DNA of 64,000 bases from an uncultured Hyphomicrobiales bacterium (GTDB lineage Bacteria; Pseudomonadota; Alphaproteobacteria; Rhizobiales; Xanthobacteraceae): positions 1-64,000 of the forward strand of contig CAIRGJ010000008.1 of assembly GCA_903878085.1 (NCBI GenBank). The letters run 5' to 3'. The translations under genes and the position numbers were made by a program. Within the stretch, counting starts at the first letter, position 1. Every line of letters starts with the position of its first letter. The notes below the pieces were generated by a model. That model was not told where the DNA came from, searched no databases, and was given only the letters and a program-made list of their open reading frames with translations. Shown in pieces: positions 1-45,499 of the stretch.

Positions 1-855
1 CTTGCGCGCTTCGCGGCGGGCAAAATCAAGCACGTCGCGCGACACCAGATCGTCGAACAGAATGACGTCGGCCGATTGCAGCGCGCGCACCGCGCGCAGC
101 GTCAACAACTCCGGATCGCCCGGCCCGGCCCCGACCAGCGTCACCGAACCGTTCTCGACCGCGGTGCCGAGGCCCTTCACTTCGGCAACGAAGCGTTCGA
201 AATCCGCTTCGCTCGGCTCGCTCTCGGGATTGGCCACCGCGTGCGCGGTGAACACCTGCCAGAACTTGCGCCGGCCGACGAACGACAGGCCGGACTCTTT
301 GACCAACGAGCGCCAGCGCGCCGCGGCGCTGGCCCAGTTGGCAAAACCTTTTGGCAGCAGCGCTTCCAGCTTGGCGCGGATCGCCTGCGCGAACACCGGC
401 GCCGCGCCGTCGGTCGAAATGCCGATCACCAAAGGCGAGCGGTTCACAATCGCCCCGAACGAAAAATCGCAGAACGCCGGCTTATCGATGACGTTGACCG
501 GAACGCCGGCGGCACGGGCAGCGGCGGCAAACGACGCCGCGCCTTCACTATCTTCAAAGGCGCCGATAGCGACCGCCGCGCCGCGGATATCGTCCGGCAT
601 CCAAGCGCGCTGAATGATAACGATCTCGCCGCGCGGCGCATCGGCCGCGACCTGCCGCATCTCGTCGGACACCTCGGGTGCATAAACCTCGACCCGCGCG
701 CCGGCCGCCGACAACAGCTCCGCCTTCCAGGCCGCAGCATGGCTGCCGCCGGCCAGCACGCAGCGCTTGCCCTCGAGCGCCAAGAACACCGGCAGCCGCG
801 CCAAAGCGCCCATACGTTCGGGGCGAGCTTCTACTGGCTCGCGAGGCTCGCTCAT
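1..855 (-). CDS. cysG: Siroheme synthase CysG, N-terminal 285 residues (cut by window edge)
   Basis: The reverse strand reads from an ATG at 855 to the window edge without a stop. The N-terminal part has the dinucleotide-binding pattern of precorrin-2 dehydrogenase/ferrochelatase ([16 protein letters not shown]), and the later part begins the SAM-dependent uroporphyrinogen III methyltransferase domain ([18 protein letters not shown]). In this family the fused enzyme makes siroheme from uroporphyrinogen III. The ATG overlaps the TGA of cysI by 4 bp (ATGA), so it is translationally coupled to the siroheme-using sulfite reductase. The remaining methyltransferase domain lies outside the window, so completeness cannot be judged. 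Confidence 0.93.
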
Positions 856-21514: not shown

Positions 21515-23425
21515 CTACTTTTTCTTCAGTTTTTCGAGCAGCACGCGCTCGATCGAATTCGGCTTGATCGGCTGGCCGCGCACTTCGCTCCAGCAATCGA
21601 CATCGATCAGGTAACGCGAGCGCAGCAGCATGGCGACCGCCGAATAACGGCGATTGCTCTCGTCGATGATCTCGTCGTTCGGGTCATCGCTCCAATTGCC
21701 TTCGATGGTGATAACCTTCTTGAAGCGCTGCATGATCTCCTTGATGCCCGGAGCCATCGGCTGCAGGAAGGTGAGATGCAGCGACGAGACCTTATGGCCT
21801 TGCTCGCGCAGGTTCGTCACGGCTTCCTCGATCGCGCCTTTGGTGCTGCCCCAGCCGATCACCAGCAGATCGCCTTTCGGATCGCCGAACACCGGCGGCG
21901 GCGTCAACGTCTTCTGCAGCGCGGCCAGCTTGTGACTGCGCGCGCGAAGGCTCCGTTCGTTGGTGTCGGGGTCATAGGCCACATGACTGAGCTCGTCATG
22001 CGCCAGCCCGGTCAAGGTATGCATGCCGCCGGGCTGCCCCGGGATGAAGCGGCGCGCCAAGCCGGTAACCGGATTCCAGTCGTAGGGCTTTTGCCCTTCC
22101 CCCACTTCGCTCTGATCGATCGGCGGCGCCAGCCAGGCCTCGCTGAATTGCGGCCGGGTGAACGGCGTCTGCGACGTCGCCAGGCTCGCATCGGAAAGCA
22201 CGACCACGACCATATTGAAGGTCTCGGCGATCTTGCGCGCGGTGATCACCGAATAAAAGCAATCCTCGATCGTACCGGGCGCGAGCACGACCTTGGGCGC
22301 GTCACCGTGACTGCCGAAGATCGACGTCATCAGATCGCCCTGCTCGACCTTGGTCGGCTGTCCGGTGCTGGGGCCGCCGCGCTGGACGTTGATGATGACG
22401 AGTGGAATCTCGCCCATCACCGCCAGTCCGATGCCTTCTTGCTTGAGCGAATAGCCGGGGCCGGACGTCACGGTGACGGCGCATTTGCCGGCATAGGACG
22501 CGCCGATCGCGAAGGTGCAGGCCGCGATCTCGTCCTCGGCCTGATGCACGATGCCGCCGACCTTCTCGAATGCGGCGCTAAGATAATGCGACACCGAGGT
22601 CGCCGGCGTGATCGGATACATCGCGCAGATTTCCATGCCGGAAGCGAGCACGCCGAGCGCCAGCGCGGTATTGCCGTCGATCACCATTTGCGGCTCGGTG
22701 CTACGGGTGGCCGGGATGCGATATTTGAACTCGAGGTTGCTTTCGGCCCAGTCAAACCCCGCGTTCAACAGCTTGACGTTCGACTCGATGACGCTGGCGT
22801 CCTTCTTGCCGAAGGTGCGGGCAATCTGGTCGCGGCCGAGTTGCAGATCGAAGCTATAGATGCTGCACAGCATGCCCAAGGCGAACATGTTCTTGCCGCG
22901 CTTGGCGTCGGCGACGATGGTGCGGCATTCGCGCTCCATCGGCGCTTCGATAACCTTGTAACCAGCCACCACCAGTTGATCGTGGGTCTCGACGTAGCTC
23001 GCGGCGATCCTGTTGTCGCGGCTCTCGCGCCACATGCTTTCTAGCAGAATGGTGCAGCCGGGCTTGAGCTCGCCGGTCCGGACGCGACCGAGCAGCACCT
23101 GCTCATTGAAGGCGATCACCAGGTCGGTTTCGTTGCCGCCATTGGTGACGGGACCCGACCCTAAACGGATGCGATTGCCGCTGCCGCCGGCGACGCTGCG
23201 GGCGGGCGGGCGGATTTCCGCGGGGATAATCTCGACGGTCCAGACGCCATTGCCCATCCGCGCGGCGATCGCGCCGAGAGCCTGGCCGCAGCGCTGGGCG
23301 CCCTCGCCGGAATCGCTGACGATCTCGACGATATGCCCGCTCAAGTTCTTTGCCGTCTTGCCGCGGGGAACGGCCGGCGCGGGTTTGTCCGCGGGAGGAC
23401 GGGTCTTGACTGCGGCTTCGGTCAT
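21515..23425 (-). CDS. korA: 2-oxoacid:ferredoxin oxidoreductase, fused gamma-alpha subunit (KorA-like)
   Basis: The product is 636 residues. The N-terminal gamma-type domain (HIVEIVSDSGEGAQRCGQAL to about residue 200) is fused to the alpha domain, which holds the thiamine-binding loop ICAMYPITPATSVSHYL and VTVTSGPGYSLKQEGIGLA. This fused form is typical of aerobic-type and beta-proteobacterial 2-oxoglutarate oxidoreductases. It forms the active site with KorB. The ATG at 23425 (MTEAAVKTRP) is chosen because the open frame upstream enters the 3' end of the flavoprotein gene. In anaerobic benzoate degraders such an enzyme regenerates reduced ferredoxin. Confidence 0.92.
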   Translation of the reverse strand: MTEAAVKTRPPADKPAPAVPRGKTAKNLSGHIVEIVSDSGEGAQRCGQALGAIAARMGNGVWTVEIIPAEIRPPARSVAGGSGNRIRLGSGPVTNGGNETDLVIAFNEQVLLGRVRTGELKPGCTILLESMWRESRDNRIAASYVETHDQLVVAGYKVIEAPMERECRTIVADAKRGKNMFALGMLCSIYSFDLQLGRDQIARTFGKKDASVIESNVKLLNAGFDWAESNLEFKYRIPATRSTEPQMVIDGNTALALGVLASGMEICAMYPITPATSVSHYLSAAFEKVGGIVHQAEDEIAACTFAIGASYAGKCAVTVTSGPGYSLKQEGIGLAVMGEIPLVIINVQRGGPSTGQPTKVEQGDLMTSIFGSHGDAPKVVLAPGTIEDCFYSVITARKIAETFNMVVVVLSDASLATSQTPFTRPQFSEAWLAPPIDQSEVGEGQKPYDWNPVTGLARRFIPGQPGGMHTLTGLAHDELSHVAYDPDTNERSLRARSHKLAALQKTLTPPPVFGDPKGDLLVIGWGSTKGAIEEAVTNLREQGHKVSSLHLTFLQPMAPGIKEIMQRFKKVITIEGNWSDDPNDEIIDESNRRYSAVAMLLRSRYLIDVDCWSEVRGQPIKPNSIERVLLEKLKKK

Positions 23426-23447
23426 GGTCTCGTTCACCTTGCTAGCT

Positions 23448-24950
23448 TTAGGCGGCGCGGATGCGCGCGAAGTTGCGTTCGCGCAGATCGATGCCGAAGA
23501 ACGTCTCGATGCCGGCTTCGCCGACACTGCCGGTTTCGATATCGCGAATTCTCAAATAGTCTTTCATGCCGCGCGCGGCCTTGCGGCCAGCGCCCATCGC
23601 TTCAATCACGGTGGCGGCGCCGGTGACGATGTCGCCGCCGGCGAATACGCCAGCCATCGAAGTCGCCAGATCGTCGCCGGCGGCGAGATAGCCGCGCTTG
23701 TTGAGGCGAAGATGCGACGTTTGCCCGATGATCGGGTTAGCGTTCGTTCCGATCGCGAACACTACCTGATCGGTCTCGAATTCGAACTCGCTACCCTTCA
23801 CCGGGATCGGACGCCGGCGCCCAGATTCGTCCGGCTCGCCGAGTTCCATTTTAATGCAGCGCATGGCGCGGACATTGCCTTTGCCATCGTCAAGAATTTC
23901 GACCGGGGCGGTGAGCCAATGGAATTCAACGCCCTCTTCCTCGGCGTGATGAACCTCTTCGGCGCGTGCCGGGCATTCCGTCCGCGACCGGCGATAGATG
24001 CAGTACACTTTCTCGGCGCCTAGCCGCAGGGAGACGCGCATGGCGTCCATGGCGGTGTTGCCGGCGCCGATCACGGCGACGCGCTTGCCGAGCGGCAGCG
24101 GCGTGTCGTAATTTGGAAATTCCTTCGCCCGCATCAAGTTGCAACGGGTCAGCAACTCATTGGCGGACAGTACGCCGTTGAGTGAATCGCCCGGGATGCC
24201 GAGCATCGACGGATAGCCGGCGCCGGTGCCGATGAAGACGGCATCGTAGCCGAGCTCGTTACGCATCTGTTCGATAGTGAATAGACGGCCAACCAGCGTA
24301 TTGCATTCGAACTTAACGCCGAGTTTGCGCAGATTTTCGATTTCCGCGTCGACCACCGTGTTGGGGAGGCGGAAATCCGGGATGCCGTATTTGAGCACGC
24401 CGCCGGCCTGATGGAAGGCCTCGAAAACCGTCACGTCACATCCGGCTTTGGCCATGTCCGCCGCACAGGCCATGCCGGCCGGTCCTGACCCGACAATTCC
24501 GATCTTATAGCCGCTCGGCTCGATATGCGGAACGTTGCTCCATTTTTCCTTGATGGCATAGTCGCCGACCCAGCGTTCGAGGCGGCCGATCGCCACCGGC
24601 TCAAGCGACTCGCCGACCACGCAGACGCCCTCGCATTGCGTTTCCTGCGGGCAGACGCGGCCACACACCGCCGCCAAGAGATTGCTGGCGGTGATGACGT
24701 TATAGGCGCCGCGAAAATCTTTGGCGCTAATCGCCTCGATGAATTTCGGGATATTGATATTAACCGGGCAACCAGCGACGCAGGCTGGGTCAGGACACAA
24801 CAGGCATCGCTCCGACTCGTTGAGCGCCTGTTCCAGAGTGTAACCGCAGTTCACTTCCTCAAAATTCTTCACCCGTATCAGCGGATCTTGTTCGCGCACA
24901 GGAGTCCGTAGCTGTGGAATGCTTCGGATCGTTTTCTTCTTTTTGGCCAT
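23448..24950 (-). CDS. NADPH-dependent flavoprotein NfnB-like (glutamate synthase small-chain family)
   Basis: The 500-residue product has the N-terminal double cysteine domain of glutamate synthase beta-like proteins (CLLCPDPACVAGCPVNINIP and AVCGRVCPQETQCEGVC), expected to bind two [4Fe-4S] clusters. FAD and NAD(P) sites follow (IGIVGSGPAGMACAADMAKAG; VAVIGAGNTAMDAMRVSLRLG). The upstream gene encodes an NfnA-like partner, so the pair resembles the NADH-dependent ferredoxin:NADP+ oxidoreductase NfnAB rather than a glutamate synthase, whose large chain is absent. It would couple ferredoxin produced or used by Kor to NAD(P)H. Confidence 0.85.
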   Translation of the reverse strand: MAKKKKTIRSIPQLRTPVREQDPLIRVKNFEEVNCGYTLEQALNESERCLLCPDPACVAGCPVNINIPKFIEAISAKDFRGAYNVITASNLLAAVCGRVCPQETQCEGVCVVGESLEPVAIGRLERWVGDYAIKEKWSNVPHIEPSGYKIGIVGSGPAGMACAADMAKAGCDVTVFEAFHQAGGVLKYGIPDFRLPNTVVDAEIENLRKLGVKFECNTLVGRLFTIEQMRNELGYDAVFIGTGAGYPSMLGIPGDSLNGVLSANELLTRCNLMRAKEFPNYDTPLPLGKRVAVIGAGNTAMDAMRVSLRLGAEKVYCIYRRSRTECPARAEEVHHAEEEGVEFHWLTAPVEILDDGKGNVRAMRCIKMELGEPDESGRRRPIPVKGSEFEFETDQVVFAIGTNANPIIGQTSHLRLNKRGYLAAGDDLATSMAGVFAGGDIVTGAATVIEAMGAGRKAARGMKDYLRIRDIETGSVGEAGIETFFGIDLRERNFARIRAA

Positions 24951-25050
24951 GCTGCAAACCCCGATTGCAAATCCCGTGCGACGAGCCGGCTATCTCGAAG
25001 TTGCCGATGGCCGGCCGATCGTAAGCCGGCCCGTTTGATACAGGCTCACG

Positions 25051-26001
25051 TTACCCTCCCAGCGTTTCTTCAAACGGATCGGGTAAGTCCATCGGCGAAT
25101 TGGCCACCCCACGACCCTTCAGGACCGGAGGGGCTTGATTCATCATTCGGCAGTGTTCCGACCAGCGGTCCAGGGCAGCTTTTTCCTCTTCGCGATATCG
25201 CTTGAGGCGCATCATCAGATCGTTGAAGTCGACTTTATGACCGTCGAAATCGGGACCATCGACGCATGCAAACTTTACTTCATCGCCGATTTTGACCCGG
25301 CAGCCGCCGCACATCCCGGTGCCATCGACCATGATCGGATTGAGGCTGACGATCGTCTTGATCGCATGCGGGCGCGTGACCTCGGCGCAGGCCTTCATCA
25401 TGATGGGCGGACCAATCGCGACAACTTCGTCGATGTTGCTATGTCCCGCGATGGCATGCTTGATGCCATCGCTGACGAAGCCTTTCATGCCGGCAGAGCC
25501 GTCATCGGTGCACAGAATTAGTTCATCGCAGCAGGCCCGAAATTTTTCCTCCCAGAAAACCAGATCCTTGGTACGAAATCCAAGAATGCCGATCACATAG
25601 GCGCCATTTTCTTTGAACCCGCGGGCCTGCGGGAAGATAGGCGCGACGCCCAGACCGCCGCCAACGCAGACGACCTTTTTCTTTCCTGCAAGTGGGCTTG
25701 GCACTCCCATGGGCCCAACCAGCCCATAGAGAGTGGTCCCTACCTGACAGAGCTGCTGCATCTCCTTGGTCGATTTCCCGACCGCCTGGACGACCAAGGT
25801 CACCGTTCCCTTGTCGCGGTCGAAGTCAGCGATGGTCAGAGGAATCCGTTCGCCGGACTCGTGCGACATCACAATGACGAATTGGCCTGGCTGTGCGGCT
25901 CTTGCCATCAACGGATGGCGGATGACCAAGGAATAGGTCACGTCGGAAAAATCTTCACGGGCCAGAATAGTGAAACCGGCCCCAGCATTGACGTCGAGCA
26001 T
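25051..26001 (-). CDS. NfnA-like FAD/NAD- and [2Fe-2S]-binding subunit (sulfide dehydrogenase/dihydroorotate dehydrogenase electron-transfer family)
   Basis: The product is 316 residues. It shows the ferredoxin-reductase-type FAD domain (QPGQFVIVMSHESGERIPLT), an NAD-binding loop (VVCVGGGLGVAPIFPQA) and the [2Fe-2S] cysteines in GTGMCGGCRVKIG and KFACVDGPDFDGH. In NfnAB this small subunit binds FAD and exchanges electrons with NADH. The ATG at 26001 is chosen; the frame is open to 26058. It is the first gene of the operon, and an FNR/FixK-like box is centred 75 bp upstream. A C-terminal extension (about residues 270-316) with several basic and acidic clusters is longer than I expect for the family. 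Confidence 0.85.
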   Translation of the reverse strand: MLDVNAGAGFTILAREDFSDVTYSLVIRHPLMARAAQPGQFVIVMSHESGERIPLTIADFDRDKGTVTLVVQAVGKSTKEMQQLCQVGTTLYGLVGPMGVPSPLAGKKKVVCVGGGLGVAPIFPQARGFKENGAYVIGILGFRTKDLVFWEEKFRACCDELILCTDDGSAGMKGFVSDGIKHAIAGHSNIDEVVAIGPPIMMKACAEVTRPHAIKTIVSLNPIMVDGTGMCGGCRVKIGDEVKFACVDGPDFDGHKVDFNDLMMRLKRYREEEKAALDRWSEHCRMMNQAPPVLKGRGVANSPMDLPDPFEETLGG

Positions 26002-26069
26002 CGATTCACCCGCGTTTGCGAGTTGCAGATTGAACAAAGAACTAATCGACGATCGCACCTGCTGCCGCT

Positions 26070-26164: not shown

Positions 26165-26737
26165 ATGACAAAGATTATCGGGGTGCTGCTTGAAGAGCAC
26201 CGCAACATCAAGAGACTGCTTCACGTTTTGGAGCAGGAATTGAACGTCTTCGATCACAGCGATCGACCGGATTACGAAATTTTGCAGGCGATCATCGATT
26301 ATTTCCAGGATTTCCCCGAGATCTGCCATCATCCGAAAGAGGATATGGTTTTCGCCAAGCTGAAAGTGCGAGAACCGGCTGTCGCGGAACGCATTGGCGA
26401 CGCGGAAGTCGAGCATTGCGTTGAGACCGAGCGCCTGCGCAATCTTGCTCTGGCGGTCGAGGATGTCCTGGCCGGCCGCGAGTTCCTGCGCAAAGACTTT
26501 CATAATGTCGTGCAGGACTTCATTGAGCATCAGCGCCGGCACATGGATAAGGAAGAGAACCTCCTGTTTCCTGCCGCCGCCAAGGCCTTGCGGGATGAAG
26601 ATTGGGCTGAAATCGATGCCCGCATGAACGACAGGAAGAATCCGTTGTTCGACGGCGCGGTCGATAATAAATTTCGTGCTCTGGAAAAAACGATTCTGCG
26701 GTGGGAACGCGAAACGCAGGCAAATCGCGTCATCTGA
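26165..26737 (+). CDS. Hemerythrin HHE-domain protein
   Basis: The 190-residue product has the metal-ligand pattern of bacterial hemerythrin-like proteins: LLEEHRNIKRLLHVLE near residue 10, EICHHPKEDMVFAKL near residue 57, and FIEHQRRHMDKEENLLFP near residue 120. It should bind a non-heme diiron site and may sense or carry O2 or handle NO. The last third is charged and not recognised. It is divergent from the Nfn-Kor operon and shares an FNR/FixK-like box with it, which points to expression at low oxygen. Confidence 0.88.
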   Translation: MTKIIGVLLEEHRNIKRLLHVLEQELNVFDHSDRPDYEILQAIIDYFQDFPEICHHPKEDMVFAKLKVREPAVAERIGDAEVEHCVETERLRNLALAVEDVLAGREFLRKDFHNVVQDFIEHQRRHMDKEENLLFPAAAKALRDEDWAEIDARMNDRKNPLFDGAVDNKFRALEKTILRWERETQANRVI

Positions 26738-26808: not shown

Positions 26809-26903
26809 CTATATAAAAAATATGCGGTGCTCGGCGCTGTTTTGACTTGAGAAAGCGGGCCTTTTCTCAAATCGCATCGAAATAATGTATAGAAAAAATG
26901 TAC
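26809..26903. promoter_or_regulatory. Pair of 17-bp upstream activator sites (A and B) for sigma-54 promoter P1
   Basis: Site A (26809-26825) is CTATATAAAAAATATGC and site B (26887-26903) is GTATAGAAAAAATGTAC. They fit GTATA-N7-TATAC loosely, as two arms of a palindrome around an A tract. They begin 182 and 104 bp upstream of the -24 element at 26991. The pair in front of P2 has the same spacing to the base. An NtrC-type activator is encoded at 31276-32712. Confidence 0.7.
26847..26870. repeat. Inverted repeat TTGAGAAA-N8-TTTCTCAA
   Basis: Perfect 8-bp arms with an 8-bp spacer lie between activator sites A and B. It has no counterpart at the equivalent place upstream of P2. It could be an operator or an RNA hairpin at the end of the hemerythrin transcript; there is no T run after it. 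Confidence 0.5.
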
Positions 26904-26990
26904 TTCGGCTGGCCGCTAGCGCCGGCGCCGCGTCCCGTCTCATCGCACAACCATCTGCAAATCATAGAGAAAAAGCCGCCGGCCACGCCG

Positions 26991-27005
26991 TGGCATGGCG
27001 CTTGC
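26991..27005 (+). promoter_or_regulatory. Sigma-54 promoter P1
   Basis: TGGCATGGCGCTTGC matches TGGCACG-N4-TTGC with one mismatch and has exact GG-N10-GC spacing. It lies 44 bp before the ATG of the first receiver gene. Confidence 0.82.
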
Positions 27006-27020
27006 TGAATAGTCAGCAAG
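27001..27020. repeat. Perfect inverted repeat over the -12 element and start region of P1
   Basis: CTTGCTGA-ATAG-TCAGCAAG has 8-bp arms and a 4-bp spacer, and its left arm contains the TTGC of the -12 element. It could be a repressor site or a 5' mRNA hairpin. Confidence 0.6.
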
Positions 27021-27049
27021 ATCCATGACTGCCAAGCAAGGTGGCCAAA

Positions 27050-27481
27050 ATGACCGAAAAAAACAGAATTCTCATCGTCGATGACGACGAAGTGGTGCGC
27101 CGGAGCTACCTGCGCTCGTTGGAAGGCATCTCCTGCAATGTCGCGGCCGCCAGCGATGGCGAAGAGGCGCTGCAGACGATGGAAGCGAATCCATTCGACG
27201 TCGTGTTGCTCGATATGCGCATGCCTGGCCAGGACGGAATGTCGGTGCTGCGCACCATCAAGCAAAAATGGCCCGATAGCGAGGTGGTGATCATCACCGG
27301 CTATCCGACCGTGGATAGCGCCAAGGAAGCGGTGCGGCTCGGGGCTTACGACTACGTCGCCAAGCCGGTCGGCCCGCAAGACGTCATCAATATCACCGAC
27401 GGCGCGATTTCGCGCAAACAATGGGCACTACGGCGCGTGCCGGAAGAATCGGACGCAGCAAATGGCAGCTGCGCGGCCTGA
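27050..27481 (+). CDS. Single-domain response regulator
   Basis: The 143-residue product is a receiver domain with the acidic pocket (ILIVDDDEVV), phosphoacceptor aspartate in VVLLDMRMPG (about D55), threonine in VVIITGYP and lysine in YVAKPVGP. After residue 120 only a short tail (about 20 residues) follows, with no output domain. GGTGG lies just before the ATG at 27050; a GTG at 27041 is possible. It is the first gene behind sigma-54 promoter P1 and is followed after 60 bp by a receiver fused to a membrane domain. It may act as a phosphate shuttle or by protein contact. Confidence 0.88.
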   Translation: MTEKNRILIVDDDEVVRRSYLRSLEGISCNVAAASDGEEALQTMEANPFDVVLLDMRMPGQDGMSVLRTIKQKWPDSEVVIITGYPTVDSAKEAVRLGAYDYVAKPVGPQDVINITDGAISRKQWALRRVPEESDAANGSCAA

Positions 27482-27541
27482 CGAACAGATGCATTCAAGC
27501 TGAAAACACGACACCAAAGAGCATTCAAATAGGAGAAGACC

Positions 27542-28267
27542 ATGACCGCATCACGCAAAGTACTTGTCGTCGACGACGATCCGGCCGTCCGCAAAAGCAT
27601 CGACCGGGTTCTCACGGGCAAAGGTTACGCCGTCATCACCGCCGAAAACGGTGAAGATGCAATGCGTAAGCTGAATGAGGAAAAATACGACCTCGTTTAT
27701 ACCGACATCCGCATGCCTGGAATGAGCGGGCTCGAGGTGGCCGAACAGGTCAAGGCGCGACGGCCGTGGACCCCAGTGGTGATCATCACCGGCTATGGCA
27801 CCGATGCCGCCGAAGCTCGTGCCAAGGCTGCCGGCGTCTCGAGCTTCATGCACAAACCGCTGTCTCCCGATATGATCGAAGATAGCGCCCGCGATGCCCT
27901 CGCAGCGCCCGCGGTTGCGGCCAATGTGATGGTTTTGCCGGTTGCCACCGAGGCGCCCTTGGCCGAACCGGCCGTCACGGGAAGCGCCCTGAAGAATATC
28001 GCCCTGTTCTTCGCCGCGCCTTTCATTGGCTTGGCCTACATCATCGCGCTTCCGCTCGTCGGCCTCGGCGTCTTTGCGGTGCTGGCGGCTCGCGCCGCGA
28101 GCAAATTCGAAGCGGTGCGGACCGTCGCCCGGGCACTGCGGCACATCGGGATGTTCATCGCGGCGCCGTTCATCGCACTGGCCTATGTCGTCACCTTCCC
28201 CTTCATCGGTCTCGGCTTGTTGATGTGGATGGCAGGCAAGGCCGCGGTCGCGCGGATCAAATCCTAA
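27542..28267 (+). CDS. Response regulator receiver fused to a C-terminal membrane domain
   Basis: The product is 241 residues. Residues 1-118 are a complete receiver (LVVDDDPAV, LVYTDIRMPG with D55, VVIITGYGTD, FMHKPLSPD). A linker (119-150) leads to two long hydrophobic segments (about 152-184 and 202-231), each built on the same pattern (AAPFIGLAYIIALPLVGLG; AAPFIALAYVVTFPFIGLG). The membrane part therefore looks like an internal duplication. A membrane-embedded output domain on a receiver is rare and I do not recognise the family. GGAG precedes the ATG. A strong terminator follows, and the next gene encodes a receiver-less paralogue. Confidence 0.85.
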   Translation: MTASRKVLVVDDDPAVRKSIDRVLTGKGYAVITAENGEDAMRKLNEEKYDLVYTDIRMPGMSGLEVAEQVKARRPWTPVVIITGYGTDAAEARAKAAGVSSFMHKPLSPDMIEDSARDALAAPAVAANVMVLPVATEAPLAEPAVTGSALKNIALFFAAPFIGLAYIIALPLVGLGVFAVLAARAASKFEAVRTVARALRHIGMFIAAPFIALAYVVTFPFIGLGLLMWMAGKAAVARIKS

Positions 28268-28310
28268 ATGCACATGGTAACTGCCGTCCCCGCGGACGGG
28301 CGATGGCTGA

Positions 28311-28337
28311 GGCCGGGGAATTTCCCCGGCCTTTTTT
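28311..28337 (+). terminator. Rho-independent terminator after the receiver-membrane gene
   Basis: GGCCGGGG and CCCCGGCC flank AATTT and are followed by TTTTTT. It ends the P1 transcript about 45 bp after the stop codon. Confidence 0.9.
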
Positions 28338-28350
28338 GTCGGGCGCCGGT

Positions 28351-28445
28351 GTATAGCAAAAATATGCGCCGGGAAAATCTAGCAAGTCATTGTAAATACT
28401 AGATAATAATCGACGCCGCCGCTGATCTGTATAAGAAAATCATAC
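28351..28445. promoter_or_regulatory. Pair of 17-bp upstream activator sites (C and D) for sigma-54 promoter P2
   Basis: Site C (28351-28367) is GTATAGCAAAAATATGC and site D (28429-28445) is GTATAAGAAAATCATAC. They begin 182 and 104 bp upstream of the -24 element at 28533, exactly as sites A and B do for P1. Site C shares 14 of 17 bases with site A. Confidence 0.72.
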
Positions 28446-28532
28446 CTCAACGCTGCCGCCGCGATCCCATCGGCGCCGGAAATATGAGCTAAGTATCTGA
28501 AATAATTTAATTAATTCTGCGCGGCCAAGCGC

Positions 28533-28547
28533 TGGCACGGCCCTTGC
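28533..28547 (+). promoter_or_regulatory. Sigma-54 promoter P2
   Basis: TGGCACGGCCCTTGC is a full match to the -24/-12 consensus with GG-N10-GC spacing. It lies 71 bp before the ATG at 28619. The 33 bp around it share 24 identical bases with the P1 region (26980-27012 against 28522-28554). Confidence 0.92.
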
Positions 28548-28618: not shown

Positions 28619-29032
28619 ATGACAGCCGTCCGCAAAATCCTCATCAACGAAGAACCCGAATTCGCCGCCAACGTCGCCCGGGCACCCAAGCTCTACGTCG
28701 TGACGACCAATGCGCCGGCGGCAGCAGCAGCCCCGGAAGCAGCGGGCAACAACACCCTGGTGAACGTCCTCCTGTTCTTCGCCGCGCCTTTCATCGGCTT
28801 GGCCTACATCGTCGCACTTCCGCTCGTCGGCCTCGGCGTTCTGGCGGTGCTGGCCGTGCGCGCAGCGGCCAAGTTCGCAGCGGTCAAGACCGCCGGCCGC
28901 GTGCTGAAGAATGTCGCGCTGGTCGTCGCCGCGCCGGTGCTCGGATTGGCCTACGTCGTTTTCTTCCCGTTCATCGGATTGGCCGCGCTGGCTTATGTGG
29001 GCGGCCGGGCTCTGGTTGGCCGCGGGGCGTGA
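28619..29032 (+). CDS. Small membrane protein, receiver-less paralogue of the upstream receiver-membrane protein
   Basis: The 137-residue product starts MTAVRKILINEEPEFAANV, which resembles the first 20 residues of the upstream receiver protein (MTASRKVLVVDDDPAV). It then skips the receiver and goes, after an Ala-rich linker, to the same two hydrophobic units (AAPFIGLAYIVALPLVGLG and AAPVLGLAYVVFFPFIGLA). The acidic pocket and phosphoacceptor are gone. AGGAG precedes the ATG. It is the first gene behind sigma-54 promoter P2 and precedes the nonaheme cytochrome and cytochrome b genes. Its role is unknown; a membrane scaffold or partner in the electron-transfer complex is one possibility. Confidence 0.82.
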   Translation: MTAVRKILINEEPEFAANVARAPKLYVVTTNAPAAAAAPEAAGNNTLVNVLLFFAAPFIGLAYIVALPLVGLGVLAVLAVRAAAKFAAVKTAGRVLKNVALVVAAPVLGLAYVVFFPFIGLAALAYVGGRALVGRGA

Positions 29033-29148: not shown

Positions 29149-30525
29149 ATGGATAGTTACGGCACCCTACGAAAATTCCCGCGCGCGCTACTGGGCAATA
29201 GCCTTGCCATCGCGACCATCGCCGCAGCGCTTTTTCTAATCCCCGCGACCACGGTGCCGGCATTTGCGGCCGACGAAGCGCCCCCGGCGGCGGATCAACA
29301 ATGTCTCGGCTGTCACGGCAGCGCCGGCATGGAAAAGAAGCTCGGGGACGGAACAAGCCTGCAGCTGCATGTGCAGGCCGATTTGTTCGCCAAGTCGGTC
29401 CACCGCGCCAATGGTTGTCAGAGCTGTCACTCCGACATCGATCTGACCGCGCATCCGCCCAGCAAAAAGGACATCAAGAGCGCGCGCAGCTATTCGGTCG
29501 CTGCGACCGAAGTCTGCAAGGGCTGCCATACCGACAAGTTCGAGCAATGGGACAGCAGCATTCACGCCGCGCTGGTCCGCAGCGGCAATCCGGCCGCGCC
29601 CATATGCACCGACTGTCATAATCCGCATGCGGTCATCAAGGATGCGGCGACAAAGCTCGACCAGGTTCCCTGCCAGAATTGTCACAAAGAGATATTCACG
29701 GCCTATCTCGGCAGCATGCACGCGAATGCGCGGCGCAATTCCGCCGAGAGTTATGCGCCGATCTGCTCGGGTTGCCACAGCGCCCACGACGTCAAGCCCA
29801 CGTCGCTCGGCGAGGGCCCGAAGGCGGCCTGTGTCGGCTGTCACGCCGGCGTGCTGGAAGCGCACCAGAAATGGCTTCCCAATGCAGCCCTTCACTTCGA
29901 GGTGGTGTCCTGTCCGGTCTGTCACGCACCGGGCGCGCAACGCAAAGTCGATCTGATGCTGATCGACAGCAAGGCCAAGCCGCGCGGGACCGAGCAAATC
30001 GGCGTGCCCTTGTTCGAAGCCAGCGCCAACTCAGACAGCAAGGGCATCGACGCCCAGACGCTGTGGAATTTGATGCAAACGCTCAATAGCGGCGGCGTTG
30101 CCGCCAACAAAACCGTCGTGCGCGGCCGCCTGACCGTTCGCACCGGTCCGCAGGCGCACCAACTCACTGATAAGAGCAAGGCGCTCAGCGACTGCCGGAC
30201 CTGTCATCGCGAGGGCTCCGAGGCCTTCCAGAGCGTGACTATTTCACTGGTCGGGCCGGATGGCCGACGCGTAGGCTACGGCGCTAATGCCGACGTCCTG
30301 AACTCAGTGATCTCGCTCGATTCGGTCAGCGGATTCTATGCAATCGGCGGCACCAGGATCAAATTGCTGGACATCCTGCTGATCCTGGCAATCCTCGGAG
30401 GTGTTGGCATCGCCGTCGGGCACGTGACTTTGGGATGGCTTTTCAGGCGCTACGGTTTATTCCAGCCGAACAACGGCGGGCACGGCAATCCACCGGCCGG
30501 CGGCGATAGTCCGAAGGCGGAATGA
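29149..30525 (+). CDS. Nonaheme c-type cytochrome with signal sequence and C-terminal membrane anchor
   Basis: The 458-residue product has an N-terminal signal (about residues 15-41, ending PAFAADEA), nine CxxCH heme-binding motifs (CLGCH, CQSCH, CKGCH, CTDCH, CQNCH, CSGCH, CVGCH, CPVCH, CRTCH) and one hydrophobic segment near the C-terminus (LLDILLILAILGGVGIAVG). Most of the chain should lie in the periplasm. The pattern resembles multiheme cytochromes that pass electrons between a membrane quinol oxidase and periplasmic acceptors. AAGGGGG precedes the ATG. The next gene, 30 bp downstream, encodes a cytochrome b, the natural quinol-side partner. Confidence 0.92.
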   Translation: MDSYGTLRKFPRALLGNSLAIATIAAALFLIPATTVPAFAADEAPPAADQQCLGCHGSAGMEKKLGDGTSLQLHVQADLFAKSVHRANGCQSCHSDIDLTAHPPSKKDIKSARSYSVAATEVCKGCHTDKFEQWDSSIHAALVRSGNPAAPICTDCHNPHAVIKDAATKLDQVPCQNCHKEIFTAYLGSMHANARRNSAESYAPICSGCHSAHDVKPTSLGEGPKAACVGCHAGVLEAHQKWLPNAALHFEVVSCPVCHAPGAQRKVDLMLIDSKAKPRGTEQIGVPLFEASANSDSKGIDAQTLWNLMQTLNSGGVAANKTVVRGRLTVRTGPQAHQLTDKSKALSDCRTCHREGSEAFQSVTISLVGPDGRRVGYGANADVLNSVISLDSVSGFYAIGGTRIKLLDILLILAILGGVGIAVGHVTLGWLFRRYGLFQPNNGGHGNPPAGGDSPKAE

Positions 30526-30555: not shown

Positions 30556-31221
30556 ATGCAAAGGCTCTACATCCACCCCATTCCGGTCAGGATATGGCAC
30601 TGGACCAATGCGGTCGGTTTCGTGCTGATGATTCTCAGCGGCATGCAGATCCGCTATGTCGGGCTCATCGATGTGGTGTCGTTCCGCGCCGCCGTCACCG
30701 TGCACAATTTTGTCGGCTTCGTGCTGATCGCCAATTTTTTCGTATGGTTCTTCTTCTATATCTTTTCCGATCGGATCAGGGCCTATCATTCTGAACTCAA
30801 TCCGCGGAAGCATTTCATCGGCAGTTTCAGGCAGATCTACTATTACGCCTTCGGCATCTTCAAAGGCGAGCCCAATCCCTTTCAGGTCAGCATCTATCGT
30901 AAGTTCAATCCGCTGCAGAGCATGATCTACCAGATCATCATGATGCTGCTTGTCCCCGTTCAGTTCTATACCGGCATCCTGATGTGGGACGTGAAACGTT
31001 TCTCCGCTCAGGTCAATTTCTTTGGCGGCGTGCGCGTCATCGATACCGTCCATGTTCTGATCTTCATCGCCCTCGTCTTCTACCTGCTGGTCCACGTCTA
31101 TCTCGGCACCCTGGGCCACACCCGAACGGCGCATTTCAAGGCCATGATGACCGGCTATGAAGACATGGAAGAAGAACCCGCCGCGGAGCCAAAGCCGTCA
31201 AGCGGCACCCATTCCACCTGA
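30556..31221 (+). CDS. Membrane cytochrome b (b561/thiosulfate-reductase cytochrome b type)
   Basis: The 221-residue product has four predicted membrane helices with histidines suited to two b hemes: PVRIWHWTNAVGF in helix 1, AAVTVHNFVGFVL in helix 2, and VIDTVHVLIFIALVFYLLVH in the last helix. It probably oxidises or reduces quinone and exchanges electrons with the nonaheme cytochrome encoded upstream. The C-terminus is acidic (EDMEEEPAAEP). AAGGAA precedes the ATG. It is convergent with the sigma-54 activator gene. Confidence 0.88.
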   Translation: MQRLYIHPIPVRIWHWTNAVGFVLMILSGMQIRYVGLIDVVSFRAAVTVHNFVGFVLIANFFVWFFFYIFSDRIRAYHSELNPRKHFIGSFRQIYYYAFGIFKGEPNPFQVSIYRKFNPLQSMIYQIIMMLLVPVQFYTGILMWDVKRFSAQVNFFGGVRVIDTVHVLIFIALVFYLLVHVYLGTLGHTRTAHFKAMMTGYEDMEEEPAAEPKPSSGTHST

Positions 31222-31275: not shown

Positions 31276-32712
31276 TTACGACAGGTCCGAAACTTCGGTG
31301 GCGTCGCCGTCGTGTTCGGTGTCGCGCACCCGGATCATGTATTTTTTCATCAAGGCCTGGAAGTTCGGGCGCTGCATTCCGGTGCTCTCGGCGCTCTTGG
31401 TCACGTTCCATTCGTTGCGTTTGAGCGCCTCGATCACGAACTGCTTCTCGATTTCCTCGACCGACTTCTCGCGCGCGGCCTTCTTGACCCGCTTGAGTTC
31501 GTCGCCGGTTCGCGGCACAGCCAGGTCGGCCTGCGCCTGCGACGGATCGAGAATGTTGACAAGGTGGGCCTGGCGGATGACGTTGTCGCTGGTCAGGATT
31601 GCCGCCCGGTGCATGGCATTTTCGAGTTCGCGCACATTACCCGGCCAGCCGTAATTGACGAGCGCGCTCATCGCGCCTTCGGAAATGGCAGTAATTTTTT
31701 TCCCCAGCTCCGCGCCGAACACTTTGAGGAAATGGTAGGCGAGCGCTGGAACGTCATCCTTTCGTTCCCGTAGCGCAGGGGCGTGGATTGGGAAAATATT
31801 GATCCGGTAATAGAGATCGTCACGGAAAGTGCCGGCGGCCACCATGGCCTTGAGGTCCTTGTTGGTGGCGGTGACTAACCGAAAATTGGCGATCAGCGTT
31901 CGGGTGTCACCGACCGACCTGAATTCCCGTTCCTGCAGGACGCGCAGCAGCTTGGCCTGGATTGACATGGAAATATTGCCGATCTCGTCGAGAAAAAGCG
32001 TGCCGCTGCCGGCGACTTCGAACATGCCTTTCTTGTTCACGACCGCACTGGTGAAGGCGCCTTTGACGTGACCGAACAATTCACTTTCCAGCAGGTTTTC
32101 GCTCAAAGCGTTGCAGTCCACCGGAACAAACGGCTTGTCCTTGCGCAAGCTGTTGTAATGAATCGCGCGGGCGATCAGCTCTTTGCCGGTACCACTTTCG
32201 CCAGTGATCAAGACAGTCGTACTGGTGGGTGCACATTGCGCGACCAGGCGGTAGACGGCCTGCATTTGCGGACTCGATCCGACGATGTTTTCAAAACGAT
32301 ATTTCGAGCTGACCTCGCTCTTGAGGGTGAGGTTTTCCTGCAGCAGCTGGCGCCTCTCGAGCGCGCGCTGCACCACCAGTTTCAGTTCGTCCGGCTCGAA
32401 TGGCTTGGAAATGTAATCGAAAGCGCCGAGCTTCATCGCCTGGACCGCCGTATCGATCTGCGACAGGCCAGTGACCATAATGACGTCCACGTCGGGATGC
32501 GTCTCCTTGACCCGGCGCAGCACTTCGAGGCCGTCCATGTTGGGCATCATGACATCAAGGATCATCACGTCGTAAGGATTTTCTTCGACTTTGCGCAGCG
32601 CCTCGCGACCGTCCTGCACGGCTTCGACCTGGAATTCGTCGCCGGCGAGAATGCGCAGACAGCTTTTTATGACGATCTCCTCGTCGTCGACGACCAGAAT
32701 TCGGGCGCTCAT
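31276..32712 (-). CDS. Sigma-54-dependent NtrC-family response regulator
   Basis: The 478-residue product has a receiver (ILVVDDEEIVI, D53 in ILDVMMPNMD, K103 in YISKPFEP), an AAA+ domain with Walker A GESGTGKE (about 171-178) and Walker B TLFLDEIG, and a C-terminal Fis-type helix-turn-helix (NEWNVTKSAESTGMQRPNF). The sigma-54 contact loop reads GAFTSA (218-223) rather than the usual GAFTGA. It overlaps the sensor kinase gene by 4 bp. The only two strong sigma-54 promoters I found in the window are in the same island, so it is their likely activator. Confidence 0.93.
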   Translation of the reverse strand: MSARILVVDDEEIVIKSCLRILAGDEFQVEAVQDGREALRKVEENPYDVMILDVMMPNMDGLEVLRRVKETHPDVDVIMVTGLSQIDTAVQAMKLGAFDYISKPFEPDELKLVVQRALERRQLLQENLTLKSEVSSKYRFENIVGSSPQMQAVYRLVAQCAPTSTTVLITGESGTGKELIARAIHYNSLRKDKPFVPVDCNALSENLLESELFGHVKGAFTSAVVNKKGMFEVAGSGTLFLDEIGNISMSIQAKLLRVLQEREFRSVGDTRTLIANFRLVTATNKDLKAMVAAGTFRDDLYYRINIFPIHAPALRERKDDVPALAYHFLKVFGAELGKKITAISEGAMSALVNYGWPGNVRELENAMHRAAILTSDNVIRQAHLVNILDPSQAQADLAVPRTGDELKRVKKAAREKSVEEIEKQFVIEALKRNEWNVTKSAESTGMQRPNFQALMKKYMIRVRDTEHDGDATEVSDLS

Positions 32713-34343
32713 TGAACGCTCCCGCTGACTTTGCTCTCGAGTTCGGCTGCCGGCGGATTCAGCGGCAGAAAGACGCGAAACGTCGATCCCGCCCCCACCT
32801 TGCTCTCCACTTCGATGCGACCGCCATGAGCCGCGACAATTCCGTGACTGACCGAAAGCCCCAATCCGGTTCCCTTACCCACGTCCTTCGAGGTGAAAAA
32901 CGGATCGAATATGCGCTGCAGGTTCTGTTCCGAAATACCGCAGCCGGTATCGACAATCGATATTACCACCATAGGCGCGGTCTCAACAGCCTGCGCGGGT
33001 GCCCGTGGATCCGTTGAGCGGTAGGTTTTGACGGCGATGCTTCCCTTCTCCTCAACGGCATGTTGGGCGTTGACAAGTATGTTCATAGTCACCTGCTTGA
33101 TCTGATCGGCATCGATCCAAATTGGCGGCAGCGTCCGGTCAAGGTCCACGGCAATCGCGATGTCGCGCAAATGCGCGGGCCGCTCGACGATGCGCACTGT
33201 GTCCTCGATGACCAAATTAAGATCGGTGAATTTCTTCTCCGGCTGCTTTTCACGGGCAAAATCGAGCAACCGCTTGATGATCGCCGCGCATCGCTTGGTT
33301 TCGCGGATCACCAGGTCCAAGTCCTCCGCGTCCTGGCTGTTGTCTGGCATTTTCTTCCGCAACAGATGCGAGAAAGTCAGGATGCCGGTCAGCGGATTGT
33401 TCAATTCGTGGGCCACGCCCGAGGCCAGCAGCCCCACCGAGGCTAGCTTCTCTCCGCGCATGGTCTCCGCCTGAGCGCGGCGCAGATCATTTGTCCGTCT
33501 CTCCACTTTCTGCTCAAGCGTATGCCCCCATTCGCGCAACTGCGCCCGCGAATTGCGCAAGGCGTCGGTCATGCCGTTGAATAATCCGGCAAGCCTACCA
33601 AATTCGTCGGCGCTGCGCACCGGGATCGGCTGATCCAGGTTTCCGTCGGAAAGTCGCTGTGCGCCGCTTTCGAGGTCGCGCAGCGGCAAGTAGACCAGAC
33701 GGTGCACGAAGAAGCCGACCGACAACGACGCGATCACAATGAACGTCAAAGAAACGCCGGCGATTCCGAGCGTGCCGGTGTTCAGTTTTCGATCGATCTC
33801 GTCGAGCGAATAGACAATGTCGAGGACGCCAAGGACGGACGTCTCCTTCGAGTGCTGATGACAGGCGGCATTGTAGCAAGACGGCTCGTTTCGGATGACC
33901 CCCATGCTACCGAGCAACGACTCGCCATGCGAGCCTGTGAACGTCCAGGTTCGCGCGCTCCTGGGAACTTGTTCGAGCGGGCGCTCGCTCTGATGGCAAT
34001 GCGAGCAGGCCTCGGCGTTCCGGTCCACCGTCTGACCAATTTCAGGCGCGTAAGTCGAATGGGTGATCTTTCCCTCTTTACTCAGGATTCTGATCCGATC
34101 GATTTTGTCCTGATTGGCCACATCGTGGATAATCCGGTCGACATAGGTCGGCTGGTTCTGCAGCATCGCAAAGCGGGTGCTCTTGCTGATCACGTCGGAG
34201 AGTTGGATGACGTTATCGGATACCTTATCGAGGAGTTCCTTGTGCAAGAACCAGGCGACCAGCACGGTGAAAAAAAGCATCGCCGCCGACAGCGCGAGCG
34301 TGAGGTAAAGCACGACCTTGAACTTCAGGGTTTTCGGCTGCAT
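32709..34343 (-). CDS. Membrane sensor histidine kinase with two heme-c-type motifs in its periplasmic domain
   Basis: The product is 544 residues from the ATG at 34343; a GTG at 34355 is possible. Membrane helices lie at about 10-32 and 192-214. The periplasmic domain between them has CSHCH (C113-H117) and CYNAACH (C156-H162), a CX2CH and a CX4CH motif that could attach hemes covalently. A HAMP region, the phosphoacceptor histidine in ASGVAHELNNPLTGI (H311) and an ATPase domain (DTGCGIS, GKGTGLGLSV) follow. It probably senses redox state, O2 or NO through heme and phosphorylates the adjacent sigma-54 activator. A perfect FNR/FixK box lies 129 bp upstream. Confidence 0.92.
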   Translation of the reverse strand: MQPKTLKFKVVLYLTLALSAAMLFFTVLVAWFLHKELLDKVSDNVIQLSDVISKSTRFAMLQNQPTYVDRIIHDVANQDKIDRIRILSKEGKITHSTYAPEIGQTVDRNAEACSHCHQSERPLEQVPRSARTWTFTGSHGESLLGSMGVIRNEPSCYNAACHQHSKETSVLGVLDIVYSLDEIDRKLNTGTLGIAGVSLTFIVIASLSVGFFVHRLVYLPLRDLESGAQRLSDGNLDQPIPVRSADEFGRLAGLFNGMTDALRNSRAQLREWGHTLEQKVERRTNDLRRAQAETMRGEKLASVGLLASGVAHELNNPLTGILTFSHLLRKKMPDNSQDAEDLDLVIRETKRCAAIIKRLLDFAREKQPEKKFTDLNLVIEDTVRIVERPAHLRDIAIAVDLDRTLPPIWIDADQIKQVTMNILVNAQHAVEEKGSIAVKTYRSTDPRAPAQAVETAPMVVISIVDTGCGISEQNLQRIFDPFFTSKDVGKGTGLGLSVSHGIVAAHGGRIEVESKVGAGSTFRVFLPLNPPAAELESKVSGSVQ

Positions 34344-34471
34344 GAATGCCGTCACTTCCGTTCAGCGCCGGAAAGGGCCGCAACCTCTCGTCAGCGGCAG
34401 ATCACCGCCGGAAGCCCCCACGCGCCTAAAATCAACCGAATGACAGTCTAGCCGTTGCCGCAGCGCGGCAA

Positions 34472-39570: not shown

Positions 39571-39875
39571 TGGATCGACCACATGCAAATGCCTTGCCGG
39601 ACGGCCGCGCGCGCGAGCAGCAGCGGTTTCGCCAGGAGGCATCCATTGTGGCACGCCACGAGCCATTGCGGAATATTCGCAAGTTTCGGTCGAGATAGCG
39701 CGCCCAATGTTTGTTCATAGGGCGGGTAAAATAGGCATGGCCGGCCATCGGCAGGCGAAATGCCGCTATCGATTTTTCCGATGCGGTCAGCGCGCACGAT
39801 TTTTGCTTAAAGATCGCGGAGGCCCTCATCGTTTTGCCCTCCCCGTTCCGTCTATTTCGTGGTTCCTTTCCATCC
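39571..39875. other. Divergent control region between the ABC importer and the molybdenum hydroxylase genes
   Basis: No gene is seen in these 305 bp. GTGGC-AC-GCCAC at 39648-39659 is a small inverted repeat that could be an operator. A sigma-54-like TGGCACG at 39650 lacks the TTGC half. No regulator gene is adjacent. Confidence 0.4.
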
Positions 39876-40748
39876 ATGAAGCCCGCGCCGCTCAAATACA
39901 TGGCCGCCACCTCGCTCGATCACGCCTTGCGGCTGAAGGCGGACTACGGCGGCGAGGCAAGCTTTCTGGCCGGCGGCCAGAGCCTGATCCCGACCATGAA
40001 TTTTCGTCTGGCGCAGCCGGCCGTGCTGATCGACATCAACCAGCTGAGCGATCTGGCGGGCATCGCGCGCGACGGCCAGACGATCCACATCGGCGCAATG
40101 ACGCGCTATCGCGCGCTGGAGCGCGATCCCCTCCTTGCCGACGCATTGCCGCTGATGACCGAAGCGCTACCGCATATCGCGCATCCGCAAATCCGCAATC
40201 GCGGCACACTCGGCGGCAACCTCGCGCATGCCGATCCGGCTTCCGAAATGCCGGCCATCGTCGTGGCGTTGGGCGGGCGCTTGCGCGCGCGGTCGGCTGC
40301 GGCCGAGCGCTGGATTGAGGCGCGCGATTTCTTCGTGGGGCCGCTGACCACCGCGCTGCACGATGACGAGATGCTGGTCGAGATCGAATTGCCGGCGCCG
40401 GTGCCGCGAAGCGGCTCTTGCTTTATGGAGGTAGCGCGCCGGCGCGGCGACTTCGCCATGGTCGGCATTGCGCTCATGCTGACGCTCGGCAAGAACGGTG
40501 ATTGCAGTAGCATCCGCATCGCGCTCTGCGGCGCCGGTGAGACGCCCGTCGATGCCAGCGACGCCGCCAGCGGGCTGATCGGACAGCCCATTGACGGCGA
40601 AGCGATAGGCGACGTGGCGGCTTCAGTGCAACAGTCGATCGATCCGCCCGGCAACATGCAGGCCAGCAAGGAGTTCCAACGCCATCTCGCCGGCGTATTG
40701 GTCAAGCGCGCGCTACGCGCCGCATGGGAGCGTGCGACGCATGGATAG
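39876..40748 (+). CDS. Molybdenum hydroxylase FAD-binding (medium) subunit
   Basis: The 290-residue product has the two FAD-binding motifs of the xanthine oxidase/CO-dehydrogenase medium subunit: AGGQSLIPTMNFRLAQP and RGTLGGNLAHADPASEMP, the second in HPQIRNRGTLGGN. It passes electrons from the [2Fe-2S] subunit onward. The ATG at 39876 (MKPAPLKYMAATSLDHAL) fits the family start. Its end overlaps the start of the [2Fe-2S] subunit gene by 8 bp. Confidence 0.92.
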   Translation: MKPAPLKYMAATSLDHALRLKADYGGEASFLAGGQSLIPTMNFRLAQPAVLIDINQLSDLAGIARDGQTIHIGAMTRYRALERDPLLADALPLMTEALPHIAHPQIRNRGTLGGNLAHADPASEMPAIVVALGGRLRARSAAAERWIEARDFFVGPLTTALHDDEMLVEIELPAPVPRSGSCFMEVARRRGDFAMVGIALMLTLGKNGDCSSIRIALCGAGETPVDASDAASGLIGQPIDGEAIGDVAASVQQSIDPPGNMQASKEFQRHLAGVLVKRALRAAWERATHG

Positions 40749-41229
40749 CGAGAAGCACGACATCGTCGTCACCGTCAACGGCATGCGCTACCTGCGGCAG
40801 GCCGAGGCGCGCATGTTGCTCAGCGATTTTATCCGCCACGAATTGCTATTGGCCGGCACCCATGTCGGTTGCGAGCACGGCGTCTGCGGCGCCTGCACCA
40901 TCCTGTTCGACGGGCACCCGGTGCGGGCCTGTTTGATGCTGGCGCCGCAAGCCAACGGCCACGAGATTACAACCGTCGAAGGCCTCGCGCCCTCCCCCGA
41001 CCAATTGCATCCGCTGCAACAGGCGATGCATGACAAGCACGGGCTGCAATGCGGCTATTGCACGCCCGGCATTTTGATGACCATGACCGCGTTCCTGGCG
41101 GAACATCCCGTCCCGGACGAGGCGCAAGTGCGCGAGGCGCTGTCCGGCAATCTCTGCCGCTGCACCGGCTATCAGCACATTGTCGACGCCGTGCTGGAGG
41201 CCGCCGAAAAAATGCGGGACGTCAAATGA
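40741..41229 (+). CDS. Molybdenum hydroxylase [2Fe-2S] (small) subunit
   Basis: The 162-residue product has the plant-type [2Fe-2S] motif CEHGVCGACTILFDG and the second cluster motif CGYCTPGILM with LCRCTGYQHIVDAV, as in CoxS and the small subunits of nicotinate or isoquinoline dehydrogenases. It carries electrons from the molybdenum centre to FAD. The ATG at 40741 is preferred over a GTG at 40732. It overlaps both neighbours (8 bp and 4 bp), so subunits are made together. Confidence 0.94.
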   Translation: MDSEKHDIVVTVNGMRYLRQAEARMLLSDFIRHELLLAGTHVGCEHGVCGACTILFDGHPVRACLMLAPQANGHEITTVEGLAPSPDQLHPLQQAMHDKHGLQCGYCTPGILMTMTAFLAEHPVPDEAQVREALSGNLCRCTGYQHIVDAVLEAAEKMRDVK

Positions 41230-45393: not shown

Positions 45394-45499
45394 CGCAGAA
45401 CTCCGGCCTTCTAGTGCAAACGCCCTGATTCTACTGATCTGCAATAAACAGGCCGCCCGGCCGAGAGTGGCACGGCACTTGCTCGTTCGACCTCCGGGA

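Follow-up and report, generated by a model that had tools for sequence, protein, structure and literature searches.

Putative UAS-IHF-UAS-IHF-promoter arrangement at two sigma-54 promoters of a nonaheme cytochrome c cluster in an uncultured Hyphomicrobiales bacterium

The analysis of a 64,000-nucleotide stretch of contig CAIRGJ010000008.1 (the window) from an uncultured Hyphomicrobiales bacterium has revealed two sigma-54 promoters, each preceded by two 17-bp candidate upstream activating sequences (UAS1, distal, and UAS2, proximal), in a cluster that encodes a nonaheme cytochrome c, a cytochrome b, an NtrC-type activator and a histidine kinase (Table 1). Comparison with related clusters makes it probable that this kinase and this activator drive the cytochrome c/cytochrome b operon through a loop of fixed geometry, in which the elements follow one another as UAS-IHF-UAS-IHF-promoter (IHF, integration host factor).

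The four copies of the 17-bp motif form two pairs whose members start 182 and 104 bp upstream of the -24 element, with a pair spacing of 78 bp that is identical at both promoters, as the first-pass annotation of this DNA had stated, and the promoter cores share 24 identical bases in the best 33-bp comparison. The motif had also been called palindrome-like; all four sites are A-rich, and the palindromes are imperfect (three with one mismatch, one with two). With at most one mismatch, the pattern GTATA-N7-TATAC has three matches in the window against 0.06 expected, a number reached in none of 100 shuffles. The same pattern occurs at nine places in the 4.4-Mb assembly (three of them in the window locus) and a reversed control pattern at 16, and single copies elsewhere in the genome are therefore background. 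Other searches for single sites returned 9 places versus 6 for the control and, among the matches listed, at least 84/96 versus at least 186/173. Both window promoters conform to the sigma-54 consensus TGGCAY-N5-TTGC and lie upstream of genes; strict matches to it number 23 in the assembly versus 3 and 7 for the controls (two strands). The genome search for paired sites that had been proposed, made over the 33 sigma-54-like sites of the 23 loci that hold a strict match, recovered the paired geometry at the two window promoters only, and no further regulon member of this kind was found in those loci. An inverted repeat, TTGAGAAA-N8-TTTCTCAA, is also present at 26847-26870, within the UAS1-UAS2 spacer of promoter 1.

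Relatives were obtained by a scan of named genomes with the activator, from which the best 80 of 586 were used, and by sampling further genomes with the kinase; those whose activators have at least 68% identity form 26 rows, window included, and are designated below by their locus numbers (L). The usual order in these relatives is promoter-RR1-RR2TM-cytochrome c-cytochrome b, with the activator and kinase genes in convergent orientation. DNA upstream of RR1 was compared in 14 clusters (the window, L092, L016, L019, L020, L021, L022, L024, L025, L054, L191, L193, L194 and L013, the last through L166), and in all 14 a sigma-54-like promoter was found with a proximal site 104-126 bp before its -24 element. 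The matrix score of this site is at least 15 in 13 clusters, and the proximal site of L194, GCATGAACGGAATGTAC, was recognised by eye. In another eleven rows (L012, L014, L017, L018, L023, L026, L027, L039, L189, L190 and L192), RR1 or its upstream DNA falls outside the compared sequence. The retention of both site pair and promoter in relatives whose activators are 68-85% identical supports the earlier suggestion that the geometry is under selection.

The L025 promoter precedes a 68-residue TM-type gene that itself stands before RR1. L092 and L178 have an additional promoter upstream of RR2TM, and L187 has one upstream of a TM-only gene. A search for exact sites in the genomes of 13 relatives gave 37 places, which are distributed over 12 genomes and include promoters already found. 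Sixteen of these stretches, picked mostly for A/T-rich cores, were compared: two (L166, L178) are promoters of the paired kind and 14 lack a paired promoter, although L174 shows one site ahead of a weak sigma-54-like sequence. The cluster is rare and spread thinly over Alpha-, Beta- and Gammaproteobacteria. The kinase was detected at E 1e-60 in two of 297 genomes sampled from the order (that of the window and G161, which belongs to another family), at E 1e-120 in the own genome alone among 385 of the class and likewise among 398 of the phylum, and at E 1e-100 in 7 of the 399 genomes in the family of the L020 genome, one of the seven being the L020 genome itself.

Spacing was analysed in a set of 18 promoters, with a UAS1-UAS2 spacing of 79 bp assumed for L019 and L194, in which the distal site is unrecognisable. 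The proximal site lies 104-106 bp (6 promoters), 111-117 bp (10) or 125-126 bp (2) before the -24 element, the L019 distance being about 115-116. In turns of 10.5 bp, this comes close to a whole number (10, 11 or 12) in most cases, with values of 9.9-11.2 and 11.9-12.0 in 15 of the 18, with L022, L178 and L187 at 10.6-10.8. Periodicity at 10.5 bp gave a Rayleigh R of 0.69 (p ~2e-4) for the proximal distance and 0.53 (p ~0.008, n=17) for the distal one, p values that are optimistic because the middle class is broad and the promoters are related (L191 and L193 are nearly identical in the compared sequence). By the matrix, the UAS1-UAS2 spacing is 78-81 bp, or about 7.5 turns, in 14 of 18 promoters (two each in the window and L092, and one each in L016, L020, L021, L022, L024, L025, L054, L166, L191 and L193), and by eye it is 79 bp in L187. 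Six promoters (L166, L178, L187, L191, L193 and L194) were found after the matrix and the IHF offsets had first been seen; their proximal distances are 105-117 bp and their spacings 79-80 or 89 bp, that of L187 by eye and that of L194 assumed. The gap is 70 bp in L030, 71 bp in L031 and 79 bp in L029, which are more distant relatives. Among these homologous enhancers, most differences in spacing amount to about one turn of the DNA helix. In L178, which comes from the genome of L022, the UAS spacing of 89 bp (8.5 turns) exceeds the usual 78-81 bp by about one helical turn, and both IHF elements are perfect.

The IHF-type elements had been overlooked in the first-pass annotation and were revealed by the relatives. 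An initial search with a stricter consensus, WATCAANNNNTTR, gave 9 and 11 of 18 promoters, and the published consensus WATCARNNNNTTR (PMC3897727, PMC7962754) was used afterwards. The positions of the offset windows were chosen with the first twelve promoters already known and were slightly widened later. With at most one mismatch to WATCARNNNNTTR, an element was found 30..34 bp from UAS1 in 9 of 18 promoters and 41..45 bp before the -24 element in 12 of 18, or 14 of 18 when offsets 52..54 are added; the 14 stand at 41-44 or 53 bp, and the two at 53 bp (L016, L024) belong to promoters whose proximal site is one turn further out. Shuffled spacers gave means of 0.08, 0.07 and 0.11 for these three classes, with a maximum of 2, and slid windows gave counts of 0-2. 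The three counts become 8, 11 and 13 of 16 without L019 and L194, and 6, 8 and 8 in the nine promoters from which the matrix took no site; among the six promoters found later, the figures are 5/6 behind UAS1 and 6/6 before the -24 element. For each of the 14 promoter-proximal elements, the spacer contains no better match on that strand, and the distance from proximal site to IHF element is 61-62 or 70-73 bp. Between the two UASs, elements with at most one mismatch at any position comprise nine at +31..33 and one at +42, the latter in window promoter 2 (28393-28405, 10 bp beyond the element at 28383-28395). The full IHF footprint includes a T-run at a set distance, according to PMC8899819. This run, for which the 23 elements were not selected, was found at the predicted place (T 0.56 versus a shuffled mean of 0.37 and a maximum of 0.49).

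The specificity of the arrangement was estimated with the same thresholds in two groups of loci. The paired geometry was found at 13 promoters in 12 of the 15 relative loci (58 sigma-54-like sites), with L019, L187 and L194 falling short, versus none of the 157 sigma-54-like sites in 58 loci of non-orthologous activators (949 kb). The 15 loci had been chosen for holding a promoter, and six of them supplied matrix sites; seven of the 13 paired promoters come from loci supplying such sites and six from loci supplying none. Relatives without a compared promoter, L015 and L028-L031 belong to neither group. The suggested link to the NtrC-type activator of the same island is strengthened by the finding that presence of the motif largely tracks the helix-turn-helix (HTH) sequence of the activator: a strong site located 75-140 bp upstream of a sigma-54-like element accompanies the HTH NVTxSAExTGMQRxNFQALMKKY, or one near to it, in 12 of 26 rows, and in most of the remaining rows without a strong site the promoter DNA is outside the compared sequence. 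The association of site and activator extends to L028-L031 (56-57% identity), whose record titles name Syntrophaceae, Deltaproteobacteria, Zixiibacteriota and Nitrospirae. The accompaniment of a strong site by this HTH type is the chief reason to attribute the sites to the linked activator.

The activator (31276-32712) is, as had been noted, the only NtrC-type gene in the window; the genome has eight PF00158 matches, five of them strong. Its Pfam domains are those of a group I bacterial enhancer-binding protein (receiver PF00072, Sigma54_activat AAA+ PF00158 and Fis-type HTH PF02954). It scored below the cut-offs of all 25 NCBIfam models listed, with AtoC as the best equivalog (471, cut-off 714), NtrC at 416 (cut-off 558.6), and NtrX, NifA and ZraR also below their cut-offs. 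The genome encodes RpoN (rpoN) and both IHF subunits (ihfA and ihfB, alpha and beta above the equivalog cut-offs).

A number of observations weigh against this interpretation. The promoters are related by descent, and the counts are not independent. The -12 or -24 element of L019, L025, L187 and L194 fits a relaxed consensus only, L019 and L194 have no recognisable UAS1, and the UAS2 of L194 is below threshold. L015, which has RR2TM without RR1, carries a degenerate version (182/105), L189, with neither RR1 nor RR2TM in the compared stretch, has no such promoter there, and L027 and L039 show one UAS-like site each and no recognised sigma-54 promoter. L037, although its HTH is similar, lacks an over-threshold site (a single site scores 14.0), and L035 has a less similar HTH, yet a site over threshold at a fitting distance. 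The IHF-type elements of the window are weak, with 2 and 3 mismatches at promoter 1 and 1 and 2 at promoter 2, so that an element with at most one mismatch stands between UAS and promoter at promoter 2 and not at promoter 1; the IHF part of the arrangement is therefore strong in the family as a whole and weak at the two window promoters. Those of L092 promoter 1 and of L019 are also weak, the IHF-like matches of the distant L028-L031 do not keep the register, and the AA of the footprint is displaced by one position (A reaches 0.39 where predicted and 0.61 at the preceding base). The activator of the window reads GAFTSA (from residue 218), where the other 25 relatives with at least 68% identity read GAFTGA or GSFTGA, and its activity is uncertain for that reason. 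Changes of the glycine in the GAFTGA loop uncouple control in NorR.

The 17-bp sites could be bound by a factor other than the linked activator, since the assignment is a comparative one, four other clear sigma-54 activators are encoded in the genome, and the L037 and L035 rows do not fit. We regard this as very unlikely, given that the motif goes with activator and HTH across classes, down to the 56-57% identity of L028-L031, and that among the remaining rows of the HTH comparison only L035 has an over-threshold site at a fitting distance. It is somewhat easier to suppose, although still rather unlikely, that the sites are those of the activator and the intermediate elements, instead of binding IHF, serve a different bending protein or regulator or reflect intrinsic curvature. 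The poor matches in the window and at L092 promoter 1 would suit this explanation, as would the word TTGAT, which also occurs in FNR-type half sites. However, the 13-bp core and the T-run stand at the offset of the full IHF footprint, 23 of the 36 spacers match WATCAANNNNTTR with at most one mismatch on this strand versus 2 on the other, and none of the 23 elements reads TTGAT-N4-ATCAA.

The equal distances at both window promoters might have another origin, namely a recent duplication of a promoter-gene unit by which the spacing was inherited and not selected. The 24 of 33 identical bases around the promoters and the membrane domain common to 27542-28267 and 28619-29032 point in that direction, and duplication had been the cause proposed at first. 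Alignment does not support it: matching each window promoter with the promoter of the same number in G161 gives z 30 (promoter 1) and z 26 (promoter 2), versus 3.6 when the window pair is aligned mutually. Such scores are approximate, and the small ones do not bear close reading, as window promoter 2 gives z 9 with the L193 promoter. Because each window promoter aligns far better to its own G161 counterpart, the two are taken as old and separate, having diverged before the split from the G161 lineage. Moreover, the G161 distances are about one turn longer than those of the window. Recent duplication of promoter and gene was accordingly largely rejected, and we consider it highly improbable; an older gene duplication is still likely because of the common membrane domain. 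The proximal distances are 104/104 in the window and 116/114 in G161, both promoters differing by about one turn, and are less neat in L022/L178 (111 and 113) and L193/L187 (105 and 112). Such a parallel shift of both promoters possibly reflects co-adaptation to the same activator, or conversion.

Table 1. Position of the regulatory elements and genes of the cluster in the window
Feature	Position	Strand	Description
UAS1 of promoter 1	26809..26825	+	CTATATAAAAAATATGC
UAS2 of promoter 1	26887..26903	+	GTATAGAAAAAATGTAC
Degenerate IHF-like element, promoter 1	26948..26960	-	43 bp before -24; 2 mismatches; another place in the spacer scores equally
Sigma-54 promoter 1 (-24/-12)	26991..27005	+	-24 starts at 26991
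RR1, stand-alone receiver protein	27041..27481	+	Pfam PF00072 as sole domain; synteny
RR2TM, receiver domain and C-terminal hydrophobic repeats	27542..28267	+	
UAS1 of promoter 2	28351..28367	+	GTATAGCAAAAATATGC
IHF-like element 1, promoter 2	28383..28395	-	in register, UAS1+32; 2 mismatches
UAS2 of promoter 2	28429..28445	+	GTATAAGAAAATCATAC
IHF-like element 2, promoter 2	28490..28502	-	43 bp before -24; 1 mismatch
Sigma-54 promoter 2 (-24/-12)	28533..28547	+	-24 starts at 28533
TM protein, homologous to the membrane part of RR2TM	28619..29032	+	no receiver domain found
Multiheme cytochrome c	29149..30525	+	9 CxxCH motifs
Cytochrome b561-type membrane protein	30556..31221	+	
NtrC-type sigma-54 activator	31276..32712	-	proposed UAS binder
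HisKA sensor histidine kinase	32709..34355	-	CSHCH and CYNAACH motifs N-terminal to HAMP

Promoter 1 precedes RR1 and RR2TM, promoter 2 precedes the TM, cytochrome c and cytochrome b561-type genes, and the activator and kinase genes are convergent to both groups. The earlier statement that related membrane proteins are encoded downstream of the two promoters is correct for the second gene behind promoter 1, which shares its membrane domain with 28619-29032, and not for the first, which is RR1. In three lineages, a promoter of this type is followed by a TM-only relative of RR2TM (28619-29032, L025 and L187), a pattern that would fit repeated loss or gain of the receiver domain. On the other side, the module is adjoined by genes for a 2-oxoacid:acceptor oxidoreductase alpha subunit, a GltD-like and a DHODB-like protein (21515-26058, minus strand), with a hemerythrin gene (26165-26737) beside them. 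L016 also has distant relatives of GltD and Kor (36 and 33% identity) near its cluster, which may point to a low-potential electron link. A third strict sigma-54-like site of the window (45468-45482, plus strand) is located 55 bp before an ATP-binding cassette (ABC) uptake operon, which includes a PnrA-like binding protein at 45523 and adjoins molybdopterin dehydrogenase genes (39834-43577). No paired site was found upstream of this element, which at a guess could serve a nitrogen-controlled uptake of purines.

The UAS-IHF-UAS-IHF-promoter arrangement suggests the following mechanism. The kinase, paired with the activator, would probably sense a periplasmic redox condition through its heme-c-type motifs and phosphorylate the activator, dimers of which would bind UAS1 and UAS2 at both promoters. 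IHF would bend the DNA between UAS1 and UAS2 and again between UAS2 and the promoter, and the activator assembly would contact and remodel the sigma-54 RNA polymerase within a loop of fixed geometry. RR1, RR2TM, the TM protein, the nonaheme cytochrome c and the cytochrome b would thereby be switched on as an electron-transfer module with its own receiver proteins. With about 7.5 turns between them (8.5 in L178), UAS1 and UAS2 would lie on opposite faces of straight DNA, and an IHF fold between them could bring the activator dimers face to face. We would give an even chance to a conserved enhancer grammar in this strict form, with spacing changes mostly by whole turns, dimers facing each other only by way of the IHF fold and an assembly across two successive IHF bends.

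Sigma-54 enhancers are a bacterial model of action at a distance. These clusters offer a natural series of homologous enhancers, with spacers varied by evolution mostly in helical steps and a predicted second bend between the activator sites, so that the assembly of activator dimers on distant sites and a role of IHF besides the promoter loop become directly testable; for the multiheme cytochrome module, a candidate regulon, its motif and a probable input are defined. The parts of the arrangement are already known. Neither a description of this regulon nor an IHF site placed in this register between UASs some 80 bp from each other was found in the open-access papers searched, and the composite grammar was likewise not found described there.

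Several known systems share some of these parts. In Desulfovibrio vulgaris, the orp system (DVU2106, IHF; PMC3897727) also combines a palindromic activator site, an IHF site and a sigma-54 promoter, and differs in that its IHF sites lie between activator site and promoter and in its target genes. The Desulfovibrio sigma-54 regulome (PMC4641369) contains comparatively derived activator motifs, with one regulon comprising an octaheme cytochrome complex; the main text of that work, whose motif logos are given in a figure, has no word beginning GTA. The CbrB targets crcZ, crcY and PP2810 of Pseudomonas putida (PMC6296734) are similar in having several activator subsites, which occupy a single face of the helix, and IHF between these and the sigma-54 promoter; they differ in that the subsites are non-palindromic and 20-25 bp apart, and that the IHF site described is the one between subsites and promoter. 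A further analogy, in spacing, is that of the Vibrio qrr enhancers, where an NtrC-type activator, LuxO, acts on sigma-54 promoters and loop lengths of about 80 to 120 bp cluster some 11 bp apart (PMC4740811). The LuxO sites form one tandem before a single loop, whereas in the clusters described here the two sites are separated by about 80 bp and, in many relatives, each is followed by an IHF-type element.

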